A stretch of DNA of 37,785 nt from Chloroflexota bacterium (lineage in GTDB: Bacteria; Chloroflexota; Chloroflexia; Chloroflexales; Roseiflexaceae), in assembly GCA_030550675.1 (NCBI GenBank), contig JAUQOW010000012.1:1-37785 (forward strand), written 5' to 3'. Below the pieces are notes generated by a model that had not been told where the DNA came from, did not search any database, and saw only the letters and a list, made by a program, of their open reading frames with translations. Shown here piece after piece: positions 3,386-15,017 of the stretch; the stretch's first letter is position 1; each line of letters opens with the position of its first letter. The position numbers and the translations under genes are program-made.

Positions 3386-5761
3386 ATGCTGCCAGCGCTC
3401 TGGGTATTGCCCGCAATCCTCATCGTTGTGATCAGCATCGTCATCTGGCTGCACATCCGAACGTATGCTGGCGCCGCGACGGCGCAGCGCTGGAAGGAAC
3501 GGTTGTGGCCCGTCGTGTTTCTGGGGGTGTCTATTTCTCTCGTGTTTTACGCCACCCTCGCCGGGATTGAGGAGGATATCGTCGAACGTCAGGCATCCGC
3601 CACTGTTTCGGCGCCGCTTACTGGACATTCCCTCTTCGTCCGTTACCCGCACACGCTGCGTTTTGAAACGCCAGAGACCGACCCCTTGACACTGACCGTC
3701 TGGCTCGAACGGGATGCCGGCGCTGCGCCGTTGACCTTCACCGTCGAACTGAGCAGCAGCGCCGTGTTGTTTGTCGATGCCGCCGGAATGCCGATTGCGC
3801 CGCAACTGACGTTGCGCGGCGATAGCGGATCGCTGCCGCAGTTAATGCGCATTCAACCGCTGGCATCGAACAAGAGCGAGCGGCTGATCGTTGATATGAT
3901 CGTCCGTGATGTTACCGGACAGGCGTTGCTGAACGAGCCTCTGAGGTTGACCCTCGCACGTGAATCGCAAACGGCGTTCTACTGGCGCGTATTCAGGCGC
4001 CGTTTCTTCGGCGACGCCGGGCTGGCGCTGGCAGTGGCGTCAGCCGTGCTCGGCATCGGCTGGCAACTGCTCAACGAAGGACGACAGACGCGCGTCAACC
4101 AGCAGCGCGATCGCATTCGCGAACTGCGCGACCTCTTTGATCGCGATTTGCTGGAATGGGCGCTTGCGTCCCGGGCGCTGGAACAGGAAGCAGAGCAGGG
4201 CTGGGAGGAGCAGGTGCGTCACGAATTGCGCGAAACGCTCAAAAAGCACGAACAGCAACTGACCAACAGGGCAACGCAGGAGCGTGTGAAACATCTGCTC
4301 CACGAAGCAGCGGAGTACTATCGCAACGGTGACATCCAGCGCTGCAATACCGCGCTCGACTTTGTCTTTCGGGCATATGCTTCGAACTATGAAGAACTCA
4401 AGAGTCTTCCGCGCCAGTTGCCTGATGCGCGCACGGCAGACCGGCAGCAGGTTGAAACCATCCTGCGCGTGTGTGGGGGGTTGCTTCAGCGCTTCCCGGA
4501 GGATGCACGTGAACTCGCAGCGGCTGCGCTCGAGATGCTGGCATCTCAACCTGATGGACATGAAGCGAAACAATGCCTGCTGCAGTTCATGCGTGCGCCT
4601 GGCAATGAACCTGGCGCTGCCGAACTCAGCGAACTGGCGACCGGCGATTTACGGATACGGGGGCGTCTGACGGATCATTTCCCGTGGGCGATCGCGTGGC
4701 CGCCGATCCCGCCTGCGCCTGGAACAGTCGCTCGACCGGAGCCGGTTGACGCCTGGCTGCACGCCAATGAGCTGAAGATACACCCGTTCGATGCGCGCGA
4801 GTTATTGAGCTGTCCGGGGTTTCTGAAGGGGGTCGATCTGCAACGATCACGGCAAGAGACTATAATACGAGCGGAGTCGCTCATCATCATCGATCACGGC
4901 TTTGATCGCTACTGCGCCGCAGTTGCGCTCTATAACGAACTGCGTAAATCAATCGAGCGACGGATGCCGGTCATGGTCAAACTGTCCGATCAGCATGCGA
5001 CCGGGCGCAGCGAGGCGATACACCATCTGGCGCAGTCGGCAGGAACGGCATGGCTTCGTTTGATCGCCGTTCAGCCAGAAGTGTTGCTGTGGCTGCCAGA
5101 CGATGAACAGGCGCTGCTGGCGGAATGGCTCGTGTGGATTAGCGGTTCGCCGAAGGCGTTGCGGCAGCGACTCCGGCGCGCCGGGTTGAAGAACGACTCT
5201 CAAGATCAGGTTGTCCTGCGACGACTCGACGACTTGTTGACCGGCATTGATAAAGCAGCGCTGCATCCCGGTATGTACCTCAACTGGCTGGCGATCCGTC
5301 CGCCAGGGGTCGATCACACGCGCCTGATTGTCGTTGATGATACCAGAAACCAACACGCCGGTCCGCTCGTCGATGTGCTGTTTGAAGTGCAGGATGCCGG
5401 AGTCACGTGGACCATCGTGACTTCGCCAGCGCACGGACCGATGTTCACCCCGGTTTGGACCATCGCTCTGCAATGGTCAGAACACGAATTGCTCGATCTG
5501 CTGAATGTCGCAGTTGCCAGCGCAGATGGACCCGCGCAAACCTTGATCGATCTGGTCGAAATGGAAGATATCGCATTGAAGGAAAAGGAAGAGGAGTTTC
5601 TGCTCGACACGCTCAAGTATGCGCACGGTTCGTTTGAACGTGCACTGGCGATCTGTCGGCGCGCGCTTGCGCATCATCTCGACAGTCATCCCGATCCGAA
5701 CGATCCGGACTATCTCTTCCTGAACGAGAGCGATTTCAAAGCCGCCCTGATGGATGCATAA
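3386..5761 (+). CDS. Cluster gene A: membrane protein with extracytoplasmic domain, coiled coil and degenerate P-loop ATPase domain
   Basis: The ATG at 3386 is preceded by GGGGGAG; a TTG at 3350 in the same frame would run through the inverted repeat and is less likely. The 791-residue protein has two N-terminal membrane helices (about 3-24 and 42-62), a beta-rich segment with no Cys pairs (about 75-195), a third helix (207-228), a charged coiled coil (230-300) and a soluble helical region. Residues 462-791 parallel the ATPases of genes B and C in block order: a Pro-Phe entry motif (IHPFDARELL), a hydrophobic strand where Walker A should be (SLIIIDHGFDRY, no GxxGxGKT), a Walker B-like strand (RLIVVDD, 646-652) and a final strand (WTIVTSP). 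I infer an inactive ATPase that acts as a scaffold or membrane sensor. Its stop codon overlaps the start of gene B. Confidence 0.75.
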   Translation: MLPALWVLPAILIVVISIVIWLHIRTYAGAATAQRWKERLWPVVFLGVSISLVFYATLAGIEEDIVERQASATVSAPLTGHSLFVRYPHTLRFETPETDPLTLTVWLERDAGAAPLTFTVELSSSAVLFVDAAGMPIAPQLTLRGDSGSLPQLMRIQPLASNKSERLIVDMIVRDVTGQALLNEPLRLTLARESQTAFYWRVFRRRFFGDAGLALAVASAVLGIGWQLLNEGRQTRVNQQRDRIRELRDLFDRDLLEWALASRALEQEAEQGWEEQVRHELRETLKKHEQQLTNRATQERVKHLLHEAAEYYRNGDIQRCNTALDFVFRAYASNYEELKSLPRQLPDARTADRQQVETILRVCGGLLQRFPEDARELAAAALEMLASQPDGHEAKQCLLQFMRAPGNEPGAAELSELATGDLRIRGRLTDHFPWAIAWPPIPPAPGTVARPEPVDAWLHANELKIHPFDARELLSCPGFLKGVDLQRSRQETIIRAESLIIIDHGFDRYCAAVALYNELRKSIERRMPVMVKLSDQHATGRSEAIHHLAQSAGTAWLRLIAVQPEVLLWLPDDEQALLAEWLVWISGSPKALRQRLRRAGLKNDSQDQVVLRRLDDLLTGIDKAALHPGMYLNWLAIRPPGVDHTRLIVVDDTRNQHAGPLVDVLFEVQDAGVTWTIVTSPAHGPMFTPVWTIALQWSEHELLDLLNVAVASADGPAQTLIDLVEMEDIALKEKEEEFLLDTLKYAHGSFERALAICRRALAHHLDSHPDPNDPDYLFLNESDFKAALMDA

Positions 5762-7146
5762 TGGAACCGGATCGCCACAGCATAGCCGCTGAAGCCTTCG
5801 ATGCCCTGTCAGCGGAGCGTGAACCGCGTCTGCAACCGGCGGTGTTCGTCGAGCCGCCGCAGTATGCGGCGTATGCCAGTATGCGCTCGTTTGTGGTATT
5901 CGGTGATGGCGGCTCAGGCAAGACAGCGCTGCGGTTGGCGCTGACACGCCAGGCGATGCCGGAACAGGCTCCGCCGACCATCCTGGTCGTTCACTGGCAG
6001 CCGGATCCATTCGAGGGGGTCCAGGGCAGCCCTGCCGTGCGCCTCTTCGTGCGTCAGGCGCTGGAAGCCTGCGCCGAGATGTTGCTCACGACATTCGCCC
6101 GCCACCCGCACCTGTTTCACGACGCGCCGCCGACGGCGCAAATGGCTGCGCACTGGTTTATCCAGACCTTCGCAGATCACGACCGGCGCCATCTGCTGGA
6201 GGTCATCGAAGAGGAGATCGAATCTGCAGAAGGACGATCCCTCTCCCGTCGCCTGGTCACCGATCCCGCGTCGCCGGTGTTGCACGCAGAGGTCGCCGAA
6301 CAACGCATCATCGCCCTTCTGACGACGACGCTCCAGCGGATGGGTCTGCGCGGGGTGTGGGTGATGGTCGATGGGTTTGAGCCGTGGCTGCACAGTGCAG
6401 AGTCTTCTCTGTCTGATCTGCTGCGCGCCATTCTTTCGACGCTCGAACTCTTCGATCTGAATGGCTTTGCAATCAAGATGTTCGCGCCGCGCGCGCTGGA
6501 ACCGGTCATTGCCAGCAGTTGGGGCGCCGTCAAAGGACGTGTCGATCTCTACACCCTCTCATGGACGCCAGACCAGTTGACTCTGATTACCGAACGTCAT
6601 ATCGCGGCGAAGATCGGCAGATCGCAAGCGACGCTTGGCGACCTGTGCGCTGCAGACGACGGGGTGCGCGCATGGCTGCAACGCTACGGCGGCGGCACGC
6701 CGCGCGGCTGGCTCAAACTCATCCGTCCGCTGGTCGACGCCTTTCTGACATCCGGCGCGTCCCAACCCCTTTCGCGCGACGCCTGGCGTGAGGTGCAGCG
6801 CACTCATCCTCCGCGCCTGTTTATCGACCTTGCCACTGACCGCGTGTTCATTGGCGATGCCGAGATCAGCGGATTGCAACCGCGCCCCTACCGTCTGCTC
6901 CGCTACCTGTACGAGAACCGCACGCGGCGCGTGCCGCGCAGTGAACTCTACTATCGCGCCTACCAGGGGCTTGCCGAAGAACCGCGCGCTCACCACGATC
7001 GCGGCTGGGAAGACCCTGCCGACTGGAACAATGTGCTCGATAATGCGCTGCTGCGTCTGCGCAAAATCATCGAACCCGATCCGCGCCACCCGGTCTATAT
7101 TCTGACTGACCGCGGCTGGGGCGTGAAGCTGGAGAATGCATTGTAG
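5761..7146 (+). CDS. Cluster gene B: P-loop ATPase fused to C-terminal OmpR/PhoB-type winged helix
   Basis: The start overlaps the stop of gene A (TAATG), so translation is probably coupled. The 461-residue protein has an entry motif AFDALSAEREPRL, Walker A GDGGSGKT (48-55), Walker B GVWVMVDGFEP (198-208) and a sensor-like strand FAIKMFAPRALEP (236-248) shared with gene C. GGTPRGWLK (311-319) closes the helical lid. Residues 352-458 look like a trans_reg_C winged helix: RPYRLLRYLYENR, then LRLRKIIEPDPRHPVYILTDRGWGVKLE. In classical SARP/AfsR-type regulators the DNA-binding domain is N-terminal; here it is at the C-terminus. I infer a nucleotide-gated DNA-binding protein, perhaps regulating this cluster. 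Target DNA is unknown. Confidence 0.8.
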   Translation: MEPDRHSIAAEAFDALSAEREPRLQPAVFVEPPQYAAYASMRSFVVFGDGGSGKTALRLALTRQAMPEQAPPTILVVHWQPDPFEGVQGSPAVRLFVRQALEACAEMLLTTFARHPHLFHDAPPTAQMAAHWFIQTFADHDRRHLLEVIEEEIESAEGRSLSRRLVTDPASPVLHAEVAEQRIIALLTTTLQRMGLRGVWVMVDGFEPWLHSAESSLSDLLRAILSTLELFDLNGFAIKMFAPRALEPVIASSWGAVKGRVDLYTLSWTPDQLTLITERHIAAKIGRSQATLGDLCAADDGVRAWLQRYGGGTPRGWLKLIRPLVDAFLTSGASQPLSRDAWREVQRTHPPRLFIDLATDRVFIGDAEISGLQPRPYRLLRYLYENRTRRVPRSELYYRAYQGLAEEPRAHHDRGWEDPADWNNVLDNALLRLRKIIEPDPRHPVYILTDRGWGVKLENAL

Positions 7147-7208
7147 TGCGCCACTCCACGTTCAAACAAGCGCTCACAAAGGCGCAAAGGCGCAAAGATG
7201 CCACAAGC

Positions 7209-7237
7209 GCCCCTCTCCCGCGCTGCGGGAGAGGGGC
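7209..7237. repeat. GC-rich REP-like hairpin (13-bp arms, 3-nt loop)
   Basis: GCCCCTCTCCCGC and GCGGGAGAGGGGC pair perfectly around a GCT loop. No U-run follows. Near-identical hairpins lie at 18020-18046 and 23195-23221, always between genes, so this is a dispersed element that may stall polymerase or stabilise mRNA ends. Confidence 0.8.
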
Positions 7238-7411
7238 AGGGGGTGAGGGCGAAAAAGGCATCCAGGCGAGTGGCCGCTTCCCTGCGTTCATGTGTAAAAA
7301 CATTTGTGCCACTCATAAGATCCGTGTCACTTCGTGTGAGGTTTCGGTGAGGATGGAGTGACGCATGTGACAGCCATGCGCCACAAAGATGCTCTGTGCG
7401 ACGCGCTATAC

Positions 7412-7428
7412 TGTGTAAGGTTTACACA
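7412..7428. promoter_or_regulatory. 17-bp inverted repeat, candidate operator upstream of cluster gene C
   Basis: TGTGTAA-GGT-TTACACA has perfect 7-bp arms and directly abuts, sharing one base with, a TATACT hexamer (7407-7412) that could be a -10 element. A second 17-bp site of similar form (TGTAAA...TTTACA) lies at 7539-7555. Confidence 0.45.
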
Positions 7429-7538
7429 CTGCACGGCGGACTGCGAACGAGCGTTCTATCGCATTCTGATGCCATAAGAAGAACATTGTTGCTATCAGCA
7501 AAGGTCCATGCCTGATCACTTTCATGACCGCTTTGGTT

Positions 7539-7555
7539 TGTAAAAATTCTTTACA
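7539..7555. promoter_or_regulatory. Second 17-bp inverted repeat, just upstream of cluster gene C
   Basis: TGTAAA-AATTC-TTTACA has perfect 6-bp arms and ends 14 bp before the ATG at 7570. It has the same overall length and the same TGT...ACA ends as the site at 7412-7428, suggesting one dimeric repressor or activator. No Shine-Dalgarno sequence is evident between it and the start codon. Confidence 0.4.
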
Positions 7556-7569
7556 CCTTTGGATTGGTT

Positions 7570-8769
7570 ATGGTTTCTCTGGCAGACAATTTTCCCGTAG
7601 ACCAGACCCTGCGCACCGACTGGTTTCAGCGCCTCGGTCTACGGTTCGATCCTTATGTTCATTTAGAAGCCTCGAGCGATCCGCACCTCTCTGAGTATAC
7701 GGTCAACCTCGCCATCTTCCGCACCGCCTGGGACGCCGCGCCAACGATCATTTTTGCGCCGCCGGGAGGCGGCAAAACCGCGACACGCGTCGCCGTCACC
7801 CGCACGTGCTGGTACGATATTGGCGGCGCGTATCCCTTCCCGCTGCCGTATAACCTGGGCGCGGCGCCGCTCACGGGCAAACCGCCAACCGCAGACCAGC
7901 ATCTGCGTCTGCTGCTCGAAGCCGGAACGTGCGCGTTGCTCACTGGTCTTGCATTTCGACCGGAGCGGTTATTGCGGGCGTCTTCCGCCGATATTCGCGC
8001 TATCGCCGGACTGTTGCGCGCCGGATTGCCCGGTCCGCTCAATTATTACCTGGACGTTTTACGCGAGACCGGTACGCCTGCCGGGTTGACCCCGCTGCTG
8101 GAGCGAACCTATGCGCTCACCGCGCCGCCACAGCCTGATGCGCTCCGCCATTTCTGCGATGTAATCGAGAAGACCGATGCCAATGCTGTTCGTGGTCAAC
8201 CGGAAGAACAGTTCAAATTATTCGTCGATCTGGTGACCAGTGCGCTTGGGTTCAGTCATGTTCTGCTTCTCATTGATGGTATTGATGCTATCTATGAAAA
8301 TCAGGCGGAAAGCCGACTGGCGCTGCAATGGGTCGCCGATCTTTTTGATTCTTCAAAAACATGGGCTGATTGGAGCGTTTTTATTAAGTTGTTTGCACCT
8401 GACATCATTGAACCGCATATTGCTGATTATCTCTCCACCCGCATCATGACCGCCTGTATTGCCCATATCGTCTGGAATGCCGATCTTCTGGTCGAACTGT
8501 TGCGCAAGCGTATATTTGCCGCCTCTGATGGACGATTCGAGTCGCTTGATGCGATCAGCACACCGGCGCTCACCGATGTGGAGCGGCAGATTGTCGATGC
8601 CATTGCGCCGCTGCCGCGCGCTGCGCTTCAGGTCACGCGGCGCGCGCTCCTGCACCATGCAGCACGCACAGACGGGGGACAGCTCGATGAAGACGATATA
8701 CGCCACGCGATCAACTGGTATCAACTCCACGCGGCGTCGCGCCTGCAAGGGTCGGCGTCGAGTGTTTAA
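7570..8769 (+). CDS. Cluster gene C: P-loop ATPase paralogous to gene B
   Basis: I chose the ATG at 7570; a TTG at 7564 would add two residues, and neither has a clear ribosome-binding site. The 399-residue protein opens with LGLRFDPYVHLEASSDPHL (22-40), an entry motif echoed in A and B. Walker A is APPGGGKT (63-70), Walker B VLLLIDGIDAIYE (231-243), and the strand FIKLFAPDIIEP (271-282) matches IKMFAPRALEP of B. The C-terminal 100 residues are a helical lid with PLPRAALQVTRRALLHHA, similar in position to GGTPRGWLK of B. It has no DNA-binding domain, so it looks like a partner subunit. The middle of the gene (8200-8470) is less GC-rich than its neighbours. Its 3' end is 88 bp before gene D. 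Confidence 0.78.
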   Translation: MVSLADNFPVDQTLRTDWFQRLGLRFDPYVHLEASSDPHLSEYTVNLAIFRTAWDAAPTIIFAPPGGGKTATRVAVTRTCWYDIGGAYPFPLPYNLGAAPLTGKPPTADQHLRLLLEAGTCALLTGLAFRPERLLRASSADIRAIAGLLRAGLPGPLNYYLDVLRETGTPAGLTPLLERTYALTAPPQPDALRHFCDVIEKTDANAVRGQPEEQFKLFVDLVTSALGFSHVLLLIDGIDAIYENQAESRLALQWVADLFDSSKTWADWSVFIKLFAPDIIEPHIADYLSTRIMTACIAHIVWNADLLVELLRKRIFAASDGRFESLDAISTPALTDVERQIVDAIAPLPRAALQVTRRALLHHAARTDGGQLDEDDIRHAINWYQLHAASRLQGSASSV

Positions 8770-8857: not shown

Positions 8858-10255
8858 ATGACTCTGCCCGAATCTCCGGCATACCGTCCGGAGCTGTTTG
8901 TCAATCGTGAAACTGAAATCAAACATGTAACGGATGCTCTTCGAGGAATTGCAGATGGAAAAACCGAACATGCGCGAACGATCATTTTTCGTGGCGAACG
9001 CGGTCTGGGTAAAAGCTGGCTGGCGTTCCACCTGCACCGACATGTGTTGAGCGAAGAAGCGCCACGCCTGTTGCCGCAGCGCCGCATTGTTTCGTTTCTG
9101 ATCAATCTGACCCCGCCTGTGAATGTTATTGGAGAAACTGCGCCAGCAGGAGAGTGGCATATCACTCGCGACGAAGTTGCACTTGTTGCTAATGGCGATG
9201 AGCAAAAGTTTGAACCGGTTTTGCGGCGCTTACTGAACTGGCTGACAGAACGGCTGGGCGTTGTCCGCGCTCCTTTCGCCCCTGTGCGTGATCTTTCCGC
9301 ATGGCTGGCGATGGATGTGAAGCAAAAACTGGAGAAGGAATCGAGCCTCTTGCTCTGTCTGCTTTTCGATTCGGTCTTTGAAGCGAACCATACGTTTCTC
9401 GACGCTCTGGAACGGCATGTACTGGCAACGCTGGCGGCGCTGCCGCGCGTGCTGATTGTCATGACCGGGCGCGGACGACCGTACCTCTGGAAGTCGCCCT
9501 ACCTGCGCACCGAGCACGAAGAACAACCGCTCCAACCCTTCCGCCTCGAACAGGTCGTCGATCAGATCCGCCGTTCATTGCGCGACGCCTCTGGTCTGCC
9601 AGCAACGGTCAATCAACTCTCCGACGATGCGCTCACACGGTTGGCGCAGCAAGTGATCGAGACGGGCGGCGGATACCCGCTGACCAATCATCTGCTCGCG
9701 CTTGCGCTTGTGCGCCGGGCGCTCGACAGGCTGCCGGACGATCAGCGCAATAACGCAGAACGCCTGGCGGACGCCCTTGATCAGACGCTGATCGATGTCG
9801 AGATTCTTGAACAGGTCGCCGACCGTCTGCTCGAAGTCGTTCCGGCGGACGACCGCCGCACCCTGCGCGAGGCGTTCGAGGCGCTGTGCGTGCTCAAAGA
9901 CGGATTCCGCGAGAATGAAATGCCCCATCTCCTGGCGGTGCGGCGCAACGGCAAGCCCGAAGGACCGGAATACGAACTGCCGGCAGTGCGCAAACTGCGG
10001 GATCGTTTGCTCGAAACCAACCTGGTGCGCTGGCAGGATAAACGCTACGCACTGGACGAAGCAGTGCGCGCAGTGCTCGAAACGTATCTGAAACTCGCCC
10101 ATCCCAATGTGTGGAAGCGTCTGCACGAACGCGCTGCGGCTCTGTATCAGGAATGGGGAGATAAGTACAAGAGTGCGCATTACCGTGATCGCGCTGCGTT
10201 TCACGCAGGGGTGCTGCGAGGCGCAACTGACGCGACCACCGTTGACGTGACGTGA
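8858..10255 (+). CDS. Cluster gene D: STAND-like ATPase
   Basis: ATG at 8858 follows GGGAAGGAGG at good spacing; the open frame continues upstream to 8459, but that part only overlaps gene C. The 465-residue protein starts with a GRE-type box (ELFVNRETEIKHV, 12-24) as in AAA/STAND ATPases, then Walker A GERGLGKS (46-53), a Walker B-like strand LLLCLLFDSVFE (164-175), a sensor strand RVLIVMTGRGRPY (197-209), and GGGYPLTNHLLALAL, a GLPL-like motif (from 270). A helical/winged-helix region follows (about 300-440). The GRE and GGYPL boxes group it with gene E rather than with A-C. Probably co-transcribed with E, whose start is 13 bp downstream. Ligand or effector is unknown. Confidence 0.8.
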   Translation: MTLPESPAYRPELFVNRETEIKHVTDALRGIADGKTEHARTIIFRGERGLGKSWLAFHLHRHVLSEEAPRLLPQRRIVSFLINLTPPVNVIGETAPAGEWHITRDEVALVANGDEQKFEPVLRRLLNWLTERLGVVRAPFAPVRDLSAWLAMDVKQKLEKESSLLLCLLFDSVFEANHTFLDALERHVLATLAALPRVLIVMTGRGRPYLWKSPYLRTEHEEQPLQPFRLEQVVDQIRRSLRDASGLPATVNQLSDDALTRLAQQVIETGGGYPLTNHLLALALVRRALDRLPDDQRNNAERLADALDQTLIDVEILEQVADRLLEVVPADDRRTLREAFEALCVLKDGFRENEMPHLLAVRRNGKPEGPEYELPAVRKLRDRLLETNLVRWQDKRYALDEAVRAVLETYLKLAHPNVWKRLHERAAALYQEWGDKYKSAHYRDRAAFHAGVLRGATDATTVDVT

Positions 10256-10268
10256 ACGGGAGGTTCCC

Positions 10269-13200
10269 ATGCCTGAAAGTGAACGCTACACCGGTGCGTG
10301 GGCAACGCCCAATCTGATCGGGCGCGAGACGATCCTCCAGCAGATTGATGCCGCAATCCGCACTGCTGCCGGTCCATCAGTTGTGGCGCTGTACGGACCC
10401 GGCGGCATTGGCAAGACGCGCATTCTGCGGGATGCGTTGACGCGGCCATCTGCTGGCGCCATGTATCCGGCACAGCGCCTGATCGATCTGTACGACATTC
10501 GCTACCATAGCAGTCTCGATCTGGCTGCCGCGATGTACGACTCGCTCGGTGTCGCAACGGGCGGGGATTTTCGCACGTTTGAGAAGGCGCGCGATGAGCA
10601 GCGCAAAGTGCAGGCTTCCGGCGATGTCAGGCAGATTGCGGCGCTCACCAGGGAGGCTTTGCAGGCATTCGTCGCCGACCTCAATCGCTTCTCGCAGAGC
10701 CAGCGCGTGGTGATCGCGCTCGATACGCTCGAGCGCGTCGCCTATGGCGCCAGCGACCAGCGTCCGCCCTTCCAGGTGGCGCCAGCGTGGGCGTGGCTGG
10801 TCGAGTCGCTGCCCAACTGGGGCAATGTCACCCTCCTGATCGCCGGACGCAATCAGATCAAGCATCTCTTTCCAGCGCTTCAGCGTCGACCCTCACTCCA
10901 TCTGACGCCGCTGGAAGTCGAGCCATTCACCGCAGATGAAACGAACGCCTATCTCGACGCAGTGGCGCAGGCAGCCGAAGACGCTGGCGAACAGGCGGTC
11001 GCCGACACGCTGCGCAGCCTGACGCCCGAGCGCAGACGCCAGGTGTATGAATATTCGGGCGGGTTGCCGATCCTGCTGGCGCTGCTGGCGGATTACATCA
11101 GCATCGCCGGATTTGGCAGGTTGCCAGGGATTTTCGAGACCGGGACCGATCCAGCGTATGCGCGTGCGCTGCTCGAAGAGCAACTGATTGCGCGCATGAT
11201 GGAGGCCGGACCGATCAAGGACACTCTCCAGATCCTGGGACGCGCGCCGAAAGGCGTGGATGCCGGATTGCTGGCGCATCTCCTTGGCATTTCACCTGAT
11301 GAGGCGCATAAACGTCTCGACGGAATCCAGCGACTGTCGTTCGTCAAGGTGCGCGGCGAGCGTTTCTTCCTGCACGACGAGATGTACGCCATCCTGCAGC
11401 GGCAGATCTACAGCGCGCCGGACGATGCCCCCGAAGCGGAGCGCGTCAACACTGCCATCATTCAGTGGTATGCGCAACAGATCAACGAGCGCCACGCAAA
11501 GCTCGACAACCTGTACGCGCCGATTGAACAACCGCAGCGCGCTGTCGGTGCTACGCTGCGCATCGATTATGATCGTATCGCAACCGTTCAGCAGGAGATC
11601 CAGCAACTGCTGATTGACCAGCTTTCTTACCATTTGCGCCTCAACCCGCTCGAAGGATTCCGTGAGTACTTCCGCGATACCTTCTATGCCGTGTTCACCG
11701 GCAATACCATGCTCGATATTCAGTTGCAGGCGGAGATCCTGGCGTTTCTCGATGAACGCGACCCTTCAGGAGAACAGGCGCACATCGACGGTCTGGAACG
11801 CGAAGTGGTGCAGGGCGTTGCTGCCATTCGCCCGGTTGCCCGTCTCTATGCCGAAAACGACTACGATGGCGTCGTGCAGAAAGCGCAGCGCCTGCGCCAG
11901 GAACATCCCGACCTCCTGGCAACCGCAGGACGCACGACTGAAGCGGCGCTCAATGTGTGGGAAGCGCTCGCGCGCACTGGCAGATCGAAGGAGGAATTCC
12001 AGGATAGCGCGGAGAGCGACCGATTGCTCGAGGCTGCCGAACAGATCCTGGTTCCTCTTGTTCGCTCAACTATGCCCGACATCTCTGAAGCGCGTCGCTG
12101 GCGCGCCCAAAGCCTGCTGGCGCTGATGTACCATGCTCGCGGGTTCAGCCTGCGCGCCCGCGGTCAGACGCGCCCGGCCATCGAGGCGTACCGCCGCGCC
12201 GCTGCGCTCTGGCGGCGGGTCGATATCCCGATCTGCCTGGCGTGGACGCTGAATAATCTCGGATTTGTTGAAGTCGAAGAGGGGAATAGCGCCAATGGAC
12301 TGGCGCTGATCGGGGAAGCGCTGGAGATCCGCAAACAACTGGGCGACCGCGCACTGACCGGCCTCAGCCACGCCACACATGCACTAGCGCTCGTCTACGC
12401 TGGTAAGTATACAGAGGCGAAAGAGAACGCCGAACGTGCGCTGCGCCTGCTTCAGGCAGTCGAGTATCGCCTGGGTGTGGGGCTGGCGCTGCGCAACCTT
12501 GCTGAAGCGTTGCGCCGATCAGTTCGCAAAGGTGACGACCCCAAGGATCGCATGGCAGTGCTCCGTGAAGCACGTCGTTATGCGCAAGAAGCTTACCGTC
12601 TCTTTGAAGATATAGGCGACCGGTTGCGCCAGATCGAATCGTTGATCGAGGAAGGGTGCGCTCTGCGTGATATGGCGGGCGTAATTTGCGATCATCCGAT
12701 GCCGGGAGAGGATCTCAAAGAACTGGTTCAGGAGAGCCTCGCGGCGCTGGAGCAAGCGGCAACTTTGGCACAGCAGACCGACAACGCGTTTCGTCATGTC
12801 GATGCGCTGGTCAACATTGCTTATCTCGGCTTCTACGCTAAACAGTGGGATCGTATTGTGCAAGGACTGGAACGCGCGAAAGAGGCGATCCCTGCCGGAT
12901 ACATGATTACTGAGCGCGGACGACCTGATGCAGAGGGTCCGGATATTCGCAACCGCCGCCTGTTCACGCAACTCGCCAGAATCCATATGTTGATTGGCGA
13001 CTGGCTGTTTGCAGTCGCGCAAGATCCGTCGTCGTCACGCCTTCAGGCGCTTAGTGGGGAATATGAGCGCCTTGCTGCATTGTTCGGCGCAGGAGCGCCT
13101 GCAGCAATCACATCCGCCGCTGATGCGCTCGATCTGACGACCCGCCATTACACGCTTGCCTTCGAGTACGACCGACTCTATAACCCGCTCGATGTCAGGG

Positions 13201-13370
13201 TGCAACGTGCGCAGAATACATTGTACAACGAGATGAAAGCGCTCAGCGCCGATCAACTTGCAGTCGTCGCACACGCTATTGAGTCCGTCGAGCGCGATTA
13301 TCGCCTGGGCAAATCCGCAATGCGCGACCTGCTCGAAAGCCGTGCGCTGTTGTTCGAGGAGGCGGTGTAA
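10269..13370 (+). CDS. Cluster gene E: large STAND ATPase with C-terminal TPR-like repeats
   Basis: ATG follows GGGAGG. The 1033-residue protein has a GRE box (NLIGRETILQQID, 15-27), Walker A GPGGIGKT (43-50), Walker B RVVIALDTLERV (146-157), a sensor-1-like arginine strand NVTLLIAGRNQIK (186-198) and the NB-ARC-type GLPL motif SGGLPILLALL (263-273). A winged-helix-like segment follows (about 310-390). Residues about 600-800 are helical repeats of TPR type, e.g. AIEAYRRAAALWRRVDI, TLNNLGFVEVEEGN and HALALVYAGKYTEAKENAERAL. STAND proteins use NTP-driven oligomerisation to signal after the repeat region binds a trigger; that role is inferred. No enzymatic effector domain is visible. Its last 73 bp overlap the convergent radical SAM gene. 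Confidence 0.82.
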   Translation: MPESERYTGAWATPNLIGRETILQQIDAAIRTAAGPSVVALYGPGGIGKTRILRDALTRPSAGAMYPAQRLIDLYDIRYHSSLDLAAAMYDSLGVATGGDFRTFEKARDEQRKVQASGDVRQIAALTREALQAFVADLNRFSQSQRVVIALDTLERVAYGASDQRPPFQVAPAWAWLVESLPNWGNVTLLIAGRNQIKHLFPALQRRPSLHLTPLEVEPFTADETNAYLDAVAQAAEDAGEQAVADTLRSLTPERRRQVYEYSGGLPILLALLADYISIAGFGRLPGIFETGTDPAYARALLEEQLIARMMEAGPIKDTLQILGRAPKGVDAGLLAHLLGISPDEAHKRLDGIQRLSFVKVRGERFFLHDEMYAILQRQIYSAPDDAPEAERVNTAIIQWYAQQINERHAKLDNLYAPIEQPQRAVGATLRIDYDRIATVQQEIQQLLIDQLSYHLRLNPLEGFREYFRDTFYAVFTGNTMLDIQLQAEILAFLDERDPSGEQAHIDGLEREVVQGVAAIRPVARLYAENDYDGVVQKAQRLRQEHPDLLATAGRTTEAALNVWEALARTGRSKEEFQDSAESDRLLEAAEQILVPLVRSTMPDISEARRWRAQSLLALMYHARGFSLRARGQTRPAIEAYRRAAALWRRVDIPICLAWTLNNLGFVEVEEGNSANGLALIGEALEIRKQLGDRALTGLSHATHALALVYAGKYTEAKENAERALRLLQAVEYRLGVGLALRNLAEALRRSVRKGDDPKDRMAVLREARRYAQEAYRLFEDIGDRLRQIESLIEEGCALRDMAGVICDHPMPGEDLKELVQESLAALEQAATLAQQTDNAFRHVDALVNIAYLGFYAKQWDRIVQGLERAKEAIPAGYMITERGRPDAEGPDIRNRRLFTQLARIHMLIGDWLFAVAQDPSSSRLQALSGEYERLAALFGAGAPAAITSAADALDLTTRHYTLAFEYDRLYNPLDVRVQRAQNTLYNEMKALSADQLAVVAHAIESVERDYRLGKSAMRDLLESRALLFEEAV

Positions 13371-14881
13371 CCGTAGTGTAGCAGTCGCATCCCTTCGAGT
13401 CGCAGCGCTTCGGGGAAGAGCGCCCGGTAGATACGGCAGTTCGGCGATTTCACATCGTACCGTCCGGTAACGCGGTACGTCAGCGCCGGGCATCCCCCCG
13501 CGCACCAGTAGCGCCACGTACACGTCCGGCACCCTTCCTTCTCATCAACCGGCACGTTCTGAATGCCAACGGCATCCTCGCGGATCAGGCGCAGCGGATC
13601 CGGCGCAGCCACGTCAGTAACGGTGCGCTCGATCTCCATGTGGCACTTCGCCACCCCGCCGCGATGGTCGATGACCAGGTACGCATGCCCGACGCCGCAG
13701 GGACGGTCGTGCGGCGTGTCGAGTCGCGCCAGGTCGATGAGCGCACCGAGCAGGCTGTAGGGCGGGAGGCGCCGGGCAATGACGGCGAACGCTTCGCGCA
13801 TCGCTGCAATGACCTGGTCGTCCTGGAAGGAGAGATCGGCGGCGCTGGCGGAACAGTCGTTCTCGCGGTAGAAGTTGAGCGCAAACGGCAACCCGCGATC
13901 CAGCACATACTCGACGGTCGCAGCCAGTCCGGCAAGGTTCCGGCGCGACAGCGTGATCGAAATCGAAGGGGTGACGCCATACTCCGCCAACCGGTCGAGC
14001 GTCCGCGCGACACAGGCGAACGAGCCGCGTCCGTTGACAAAGCGACGATGAGCATCATGCACATCGCCGATGCCGTCGAGCGAGATCATCAAGCGCAACC
14101 CGCTGTCGCGGATCTGGCGGATCAGGCGATTGCCGAGCGCCACGCCGTTACTGAGCAGCACCCCGTCGAGCGCCAGTCCATGTTTTCCTGCGCATTCGCG
14201 CGCATATTGGTGCGTTGCAAAGATAATCGAAGCATTCAGCGTCGCCTCGCCGCCAGCATACTTCAGCTTAATCCGCCGAAATCCGTGCGCCAGCGCAGAG
14301 CGAATCACTGCATCGACCGCCTGCCTGCCGCGCGCCATGTCCATAGCATCAGGGGTTTTGCTGACGTAACAGTAGTCGCAGCGCAGGTTGCACTCGTTGG
14401 TGATGTGCAGCCAGGCGGTGAGGGTCTGCGACGCTGCGCGCCGCGCGCCAGCCGGTCGGTCGAGGCGCTGAATCAACTCCAGTTCGGCGAGGCGCCGCGC
14501 CGCTCGATGCAGGTCATCATTTTCTCCAGCGTCCGCCAACCGTCGGGGTTGGCGAAACCGGTTGAGCAGCTCCCACGCCGCTCCATCGAGCACCACAACA
14601 CCTGCGCTGCCGAATGGATTGAACGCCAGAACGTAGCCGCCGGGAAGCGTATCGGTATGCAGTGCAGGCATATGGTACGCAACTGAGTCGTCTACAGCGC
14701 CGTCAGAAGGGGATTCGGGGCGTTCTGTCGGGCAGGCGCAGTCCGTCTCCGGCGGCGTAAAGCAGTCGGTCTCCGCTAATGAGAAGCCATTCGTCTCAGT
14801 AGCGTAACTGATGTGCTGCACCACATCTGCCGCACACAGGATAAGCGGCGTCGTTGCAGCGGGCGGATTCGCGTTGTTCAT
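13298..14881 (-). CDS. Radical SAM/SPASM protein with N-terminal PqqD-like segment
   Basis: I chose the ATG at 14881, preceded by AGGAGG; an upstream in-frame start at 14926 lacks this. The 527-residue protein carries the SAM iron-sulfur triad Cys164/Cys168/Cys171 (ECNLRCDYC), an AGGEATLN block, and a C-terminal SPASM region rich in Cys (CGVGHAYLVID, AKCHMEIE, GCRTCTWRYWCAGGCP, SPNCRIYR) for two auxiliary clusters. Residues about 75-140 resemble a PqqD-like peptide-binding fold (TLPGGYVLAFNP...LLNRFR). Members of this family modify ribosomal peptides or enzymes by radical chemistry. Residues 25-60 are acidic and contain three Cys. No precursor peptide gene was found nearby. It is convergent with gene E and overlaps it by 73 bp, so the two transcripts would be antisense at their ends. 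Confidence 0.85.
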   Translation of the reverse strand: MNNANPPAATTPLILCAADVVQHISYATETNGFSLAETDCFTPPETDCACPTERPESPSDGAVDDSVAYHMPALHTDTLPGGYVLAFNPFGSAGVVVLDGAAWELLNRFRQPRRLADAGENDDLHRAARRLAELELIQRLDRPAGARRAASQTLTAWLHITNECNLRCDYCYVSKTPDAMDMARGRQAVDAVIRSALAHGFRRIKLKYAGGEATLNASIIFATHQYARECAGKHGLALDGVLLSNGVALGNRLIRQIRDSGLRLMISLDGIGDVHDAHRRFVNGRGSFACVARTLDRLAEYGVTPSISITLSRRNLAGLAATVEYVLDRGLPFALNFYRENDCSASAADLSFQDDQVIAAMREAFAVIARRLPPYSLLGALIDLARLDTPHDRPCGVGHAYLVIDHRGGVAKCHMEIERTVTDVAAPDPLRLIREDAVGIQNVPVDEKEGCRTCTWRYWCAGGCPALTYRVTGRYDVKSPNCRIYRALFPEALRLEGMRLLHYGYTASSNNSARLSSRSRIADLPRR

Positions 14882-15017
14882 AAGAGCCTCCTGAATGCCG
14901 CGGCGCCCTATGACAGACTTATTCAAAACAGAGAGCGCATTCGAGCCATCGCCAGGGAGTTTGAATAACGATTCCGCTATCCGCCTTGTAGCCTGGCGGC
15001 GAAAGCCGCGGGGGTGC

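Follow-up and report, generated by a model that had tools for sequence, protein, structure and literature searches.

Dead ATPase subunits as such are already known, and clamp loaders and ORC carry one or more members that do not bind ATP within a multi-subunit set. The closest published thing, in kind, to the protein described here is the inactive STAND-type domain (iSTAND), a core subunit found beside active NTPases in vWA-MoxR conflict systems (Kaur et al. 2020, eLife, PMC7159879). Some of these systems are membrane-proximal, and they are enriched in multicellular bacteria. Published conflict systems (PMC7159879) include both iSTAND proteins and radical-SAM genes.

The locus analysed here lies in a stretch of 37,785 nucleotides from a Chloroflexota bacterium, hereafter the window. 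Some Chloroflexota are multicellular, and conflict systems based on STAND proteins are found in this phylum. As in the iSTAND systems, gene A of this locus encodes an apparently inactive STAND-type domain encoded beside ATPases, a likeness in kind. The partners differ, being four paralogues of the STAND/AAA+ type together with a radical-SAM/SPASM enzyme, and, unlike the iSTAND subunits, the gene A subunit is itself transmembrane and has live orthologues. Since no MoxR or vWA match to Pfam was found among genes A-F and nine neighbouring genes scanned, gene A is not filed as a vWA-MoxR iSTAND. The inactive AAA+ subunits of the clamp loader (delta and delta') and of ORC belong, by structure match, to the fold group of the gene A domain, but they have no membrane anchor and no sequence relation with them was found.

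Other partial likenesses concern the neighbours of gene A. The P-loop ATPase Sll1717 family (NF047389) and the DS41_1 anti-phage model (NF053860) align in part to B, C and one intact A protein. For Sll1717, B and C score 48.3 and 52.8 bits, both under the curated cut-off of 75, and for DS41_1 both are sub-threshold; the window A domain matches neither model. A distant B/C-type protein lies above the cut-off of the Pfam ORC-CDC6-like family (PF24389). Among open-licence papers, also when the subject was DS41, the operon in Roseiflexus or degenerate STAND proteins anchored in the membrane, no description was found of this conserved five-ATPase cassette with its putative transmembrane receptor subunit and radical-SAM enzyme.

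The A-F cassette and the layout of gene A

The cassette A-B-C-D-E-F includes five P-loop proteins and a radical-SAM/SPASM enzyme. Gene A (3386..5758, forward strand, with ATG at 3386 and stop at 5759-5761) encodes a membrane-anchored protein of 791 aa carrying a C-terminal putative pseudo-ATPase domain. On the same strand follow gene B (5761..7143), a P-loop ATPase with the Walker A motif GDGGSGKT and an OmpR-type C-terminal winged helix (Pfam Trans_reg_C, E 8e-8), the P-loop ATPase genes C (7564..8766, APPGGGKT) and D (8858..10252, GERGLGKS), and gene E (10269..13367), a STAND-type ATPase with GPGGIGKT and TPR repeats (Pfam AAA_16 and TPR_12 above cut-off). Gene F (13301..14926, reverse strand), convergent with E, encodes the radical SAM/SPASM enzyme (Pfam Radical_SAM, E 4e-13), whose N-terminal part carries a DCAC motif and whose NCBIfam relatives are peptide-maturase models. 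In the window, the cassette is flanked by housekeeping or cell-wall genes.

Using B and C as bait, the cassette was found at about 25 Chloroflexota loci. Within the window's genus, it occurs in five further genomes, of which one is a fragment. Outside the genus, it is present in a single Chloroflexus-like genome, in many members of a family referred to as f11 and in a few other places. Gene A stands beside B in nearly every cassette. The stop of A and the start of B share one base in the window, and the two genes overlap by 4 bases in L012, L031 and L032. The gap between B and C (7147-7563 in the window) is also recurrent, with a length of about 70-420 bp. A plasmid search with gene B gave no match, and peptide-pattern scans of genome contigs with A and B returned, among the matches listed, nothing beyond a Walker A hit of 36 residues in a contig from Planctomycetaceae, which was judged generic.

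Nearly every F protein includes one to four [DEN]DCAC-type motifs before the radical SAM domain, as ETDCFTPPETDCACP in the window (loci surveyed: L010-L014, L031-L036 and L090-L109, most of which carry the motif). As no convincing separate short DCAC precursor peptide was found near the cassettes, the F enzyme may contain a segment resembling a substrate within its own chain. Next to the cassette, many genomes of family f11 have a seventh gene coding for a membrane coiled-coil protein of 210-230 aa (L033:14173-14868 on the forward strand, L036:2836-3462 on the reverse strand and about 12 other loci), which is absent from the window's genus. A distant sister cassette includes a C-type protein (L035:2729-4069) with an N-terminal effector-associated domain, EAD7, above the Pfam cut-off and a lost Walker A.

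The protein encoded by gene A starts with two hydrophobic segments, predicted to be transmembrane at residues 4-22 (3395..3451, forward strand as for all gene A features; Kyte-Doolittle mean 2.84 in a 19-residue window) and 43-61 (3512..3568; 2.21). A third one is located at residues 207-225 (4004..4060; 1.74). The intervening residues 62-206 (3569..4003) form, according to the topology deduced from these segments, a predicted extracytoplasmic domain that is a candidate sensor. A helical middle part then leads to the putative pseudo-ATPase domain, an AAA+/STAND fold without Walker A at residues 440-791 (4703..5758). The transmembrane layout is common to most lysine-less and intact A proteins, and a spacing of about 145-160 aa between the hydrophobic segments recurs in most orthologues. 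In the gene A models of L097-L099, no transmembrane segment was detectable, and these ORFs are short or split. In the complete Chloroflexus-like genome (L014:4409-6851), gene A extends over three reading frames, the second break falling where the pseudo-ATPase domain begins. This may reflect a pseudogene, a sequencing error or a split protein, and gene A may be dispensable in this genome since B-F are intact there.

Descent and predicted fold of the gene A domain

Residues 440-791 of gene A are, by descent and predicted fold, a P-loop domain of the AAA+/STAND type. When 18 lysine-less A domains were compared by profile-profile alignment with C, a probability of 99.05% was obtained (E 2.2e-18, 331 columns), and the comparison with B gave 97% (E 8.6e-11). 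The controls, including a column-shuffled profile, the TPR part of E, gene F and the N-terminal part of A, remained at or below 0.4%. The significance of this homology came with the addition of divergent orthologues to the A profile (18 rows). With the six close orthologues alone, the comparison with B and C was not significant, and the homology is thus not demonstrable from the window alone. Among B-E, gene C is the one most closely related to the gene A domain. The block order shared with B and C, as claimed in the original prediction, is therefore borne out by the profiles.

AlphaFold2 modelling of the domain from a 27-row alignment gave a pLDDT of 87.6 and a pTM of 0.86, with a strand-loop-helix, a Walker B strand, a sensor strand and a helical lid. 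As 8 of these 27 rows are forms with GK or GR at the P-loop (GK/GR forms), they contribute in part to this model. A model built from the six close orthologues alone reached a pLDDT of 60 and was discarded. Structures proposed by Foldseek were aligned to the retained model with VIA-align, the best alignment being with archaeal ORC1/Cdc6 (Z 12.3, 232 residues, rmsd 5.3), followed at a Z of about 10 by MuB, p97, RFC and the NRC4 resistosome (10.4 for the latter). In Foldseek itself, HslU, clamp loader and CED-4 chains held the top ranks and ORC was also present, none of the matches having an E below 0.001. Scans of gene A with Pfam, PADLOC and NCBIfam gave no real match, and searching PDB sequences with the A profile returned chance hits only. 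A fold other than a P-loop was thus not what the modelling predicted, and the proposal of a degenerate P-loop domain in a membrane protein encoded beside intact paralogues is supported.

Loss of the Walker A motif

The pattern [AG]x4GK[ST] is absent throughout the 791 residues of gene A. The presumed dead P-loop site, SLIIIDHGFDRY (residues 498-509, 4877..4912, forward strand), aligns with the GxxGxGKT of intact A orthologues. Its assignment as the Walker A position holds, whereas the residue numbers given with it, counted from 3383, were one too high. A sequencing or frame error was ruled out as the origin of the degenerate site, as the frame is open across all 791 codons and the same state is common to 18 other loci.

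An intact Walker A is found in gene A of six divergent cassettes, reading GEAGIGKT in L036 and GETGSGKT, GGEGMGKT, GAAGSGKT, GAEGMGKT and GEPGSGKT in L101-L105. Gene A reads GRT in two further cassettes, L106 and L108. In all these GK/GR forms, the motif occupies the same alignment columns as DHGFDRYC in the window. Intact forms are therefore located at the same place in divergent orthologues rather than elsewhere in the region, which supports a common ancestry of the A forms. Outside the GK/GR forms, the Walker A is missing in all A proteins, including every orthologue of the window's clade, whereas B-E of the same cassettes retain GK[ST] with very few exceptions. In the gene A domain, none of the three glycines of the P-loop is left, and its lysine and Thr have likewise gone.

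On a concatenated B-F tree, all lysine-less A proteins belong to one clade whose neighbours are GK forms (UFBoot 93). This tree was rooted at the midpoint, and the grouping is independent of the root unless the P-loop was regained. The simplest reading, drawn from this single clade, is that the P-loop lysine of A was lost once, anciently. With orthologues still live at this locus, intermediates that read GRT and a loss mapped to a single event, gene A would provide a natural experiment on how a subunit of the switch-ATPase kind turns into a pseudo-enzyme.

The Walker B-like strand RLIVVDD (residues 646-652, 5321..5341, forward strand) had been described as remaining in gene A. This is right for the window's genus and the Chloroflexus-like genome (L014), in which the Asp is kept (6/6), but not for most other lysine-less A proteins, in which it is absent. 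By contrast, the Walker B Asp is present in all eight GK/GR forms. The window residue stands one column past that Asp, a shift within alignment error. A sensor-2-like Arg752 is also present in the window and nearly invariant in the lysine-less set.

Constraint on the domain and its proposed role

In the former P-loop, Asp507 (4904..4906, forward strand) is invariant in the lysine-less A proteins (19/19), and so are Trp584, Pro639, Ser749 and His764 in their A domains (19/19). The eight GK/GR forms differ at these five columns, their invariant residues being the P-loop glycines, the Thr and the Walker B Asp. The residues specific to the lysine-less clade remain invariant despite an identity of 15-20%. 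The dN/dS of the gene A domain is 0.29-0.37, that of B and C 0.13-0.21, so that gene A evolves about twice as fast by this measure. As judged from these sequences, the domain is clearly under purifying selection, weaker than that on B and C. The invariance of Asp507 and the dN/dS of the domain argue that the site is not the product of random decay. In the model, Asp507, whose column may be off by one, belongs to the initial turn of the helix following the former P-loop, and it therefore probably caps this helix where the phosphate once sat.

Nucleotide binding in spite of a missing lysine occurs in some P-loop proteins, and the label "dead" given to the gene A domain is thus a label based on sequence. 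With this qualification, gene A is rather likely to encode a membrane-anchored, nucleotide-independent subunit of a five-paralogue AAA+/STAND machine resembling ORC/Cdc6, and it probably acts as a membrane sensor or scaffold for B-E. The extracytoplasmic loop of A would sense a signal from the outside or from the envelope. The dead domain may pack against B and C, as suggested by the tight coupling of genes A and B and by its closest similarity to C. By analogy with the pseudo-ATPase subunits of clamp loaders and ORC, it would be a fixed subunit nucleating or gating the ATP-dependent assembly of B-E. The regulatory or nucleating role put forward in the original prediction is plausible. As output, B might regulate genes with its DNA-binding tail of the OmpR type, F might modify a peptide, or both. 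More tentatively, and with somewhat less than even confidence, A-F could be seen as a Chloroflexota machine, so far undescribed, for conflict or for signalling from membrane to DNA, in which A-E form one mixed complex. The receptor A would have been converted from a live ATPase to a permanently ATP-independent subunit when an invariant Asp took the place of the phosphate loop, and it would be coupled to the radical-SAM enzyme F, whose own chain bears Cys-rich, substrate-like DCAC motifs.

A version of the preferred explanation that names a purpose is that A is the membrane-linked sensor of a STAND-type anti-phage or self-nonself conflict system, the dead domain passing the signal to B-E while F makes the effector. 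The resemblance of B and C to the DS41_1 anti-phage and Sll1717 ATPases, although below cut-off, the EAD7 domain on the lysine-less ATPase of the distant sister cassette L035, and the iSTAND proteins and radical-SAM genes of published conflict systems (PMC7159879) point in this direction. Nevertheless, PADLOC gave nothing above chance on the cassette except viperin-like scores of the F radical SAM domain, no effector or effector-associated domain was matched by Pfam in A-F, EAD7 occurring solely at the sister locus, the plasmid search found nothing and the neighbours of the window cassette are housekeeping genes. A defence function is thus conceivable but rather doubtful.

It is quite improbable that the gene A domain is a non-canonical nucleotide binder using the Walker B-like Asp, Arg752 and a remodelled loop. 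The window and its genus do retain an Asp where the Walker B strand ends, Arg752 hardly varies among the lysine-less proteins and the dN/dS indicates a function. Nonetheless, the loop has lost its glycines, lysine and Thr and an acidic residue has been fixed in it, while the Walker B Asp, found in 8/8 GK/GR forms, is lost in most other lysine-less A proteins. Slightly less probable still is a degenerating relic under weak constraint beside B-E doing the work, as might be read from the twofold faster evolution of A and its frameshifts in L014, since purifying selection on A is still clear, the residues specific to the lysine-less clade stay fixed even at 15-20% identity and A is retained beside B in nearly every cassette.

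Changes of the Walker A motif are also observed in gene B of two cassettes. In L109 (4589-5968), this motif is damaged and reads TTPGCGMS, and in L104 (4527-5870), it lacks the first glycine and reads VKTGDGKT. These changes possibly represent a second, independent subunit loss, as read from the motif sequences.
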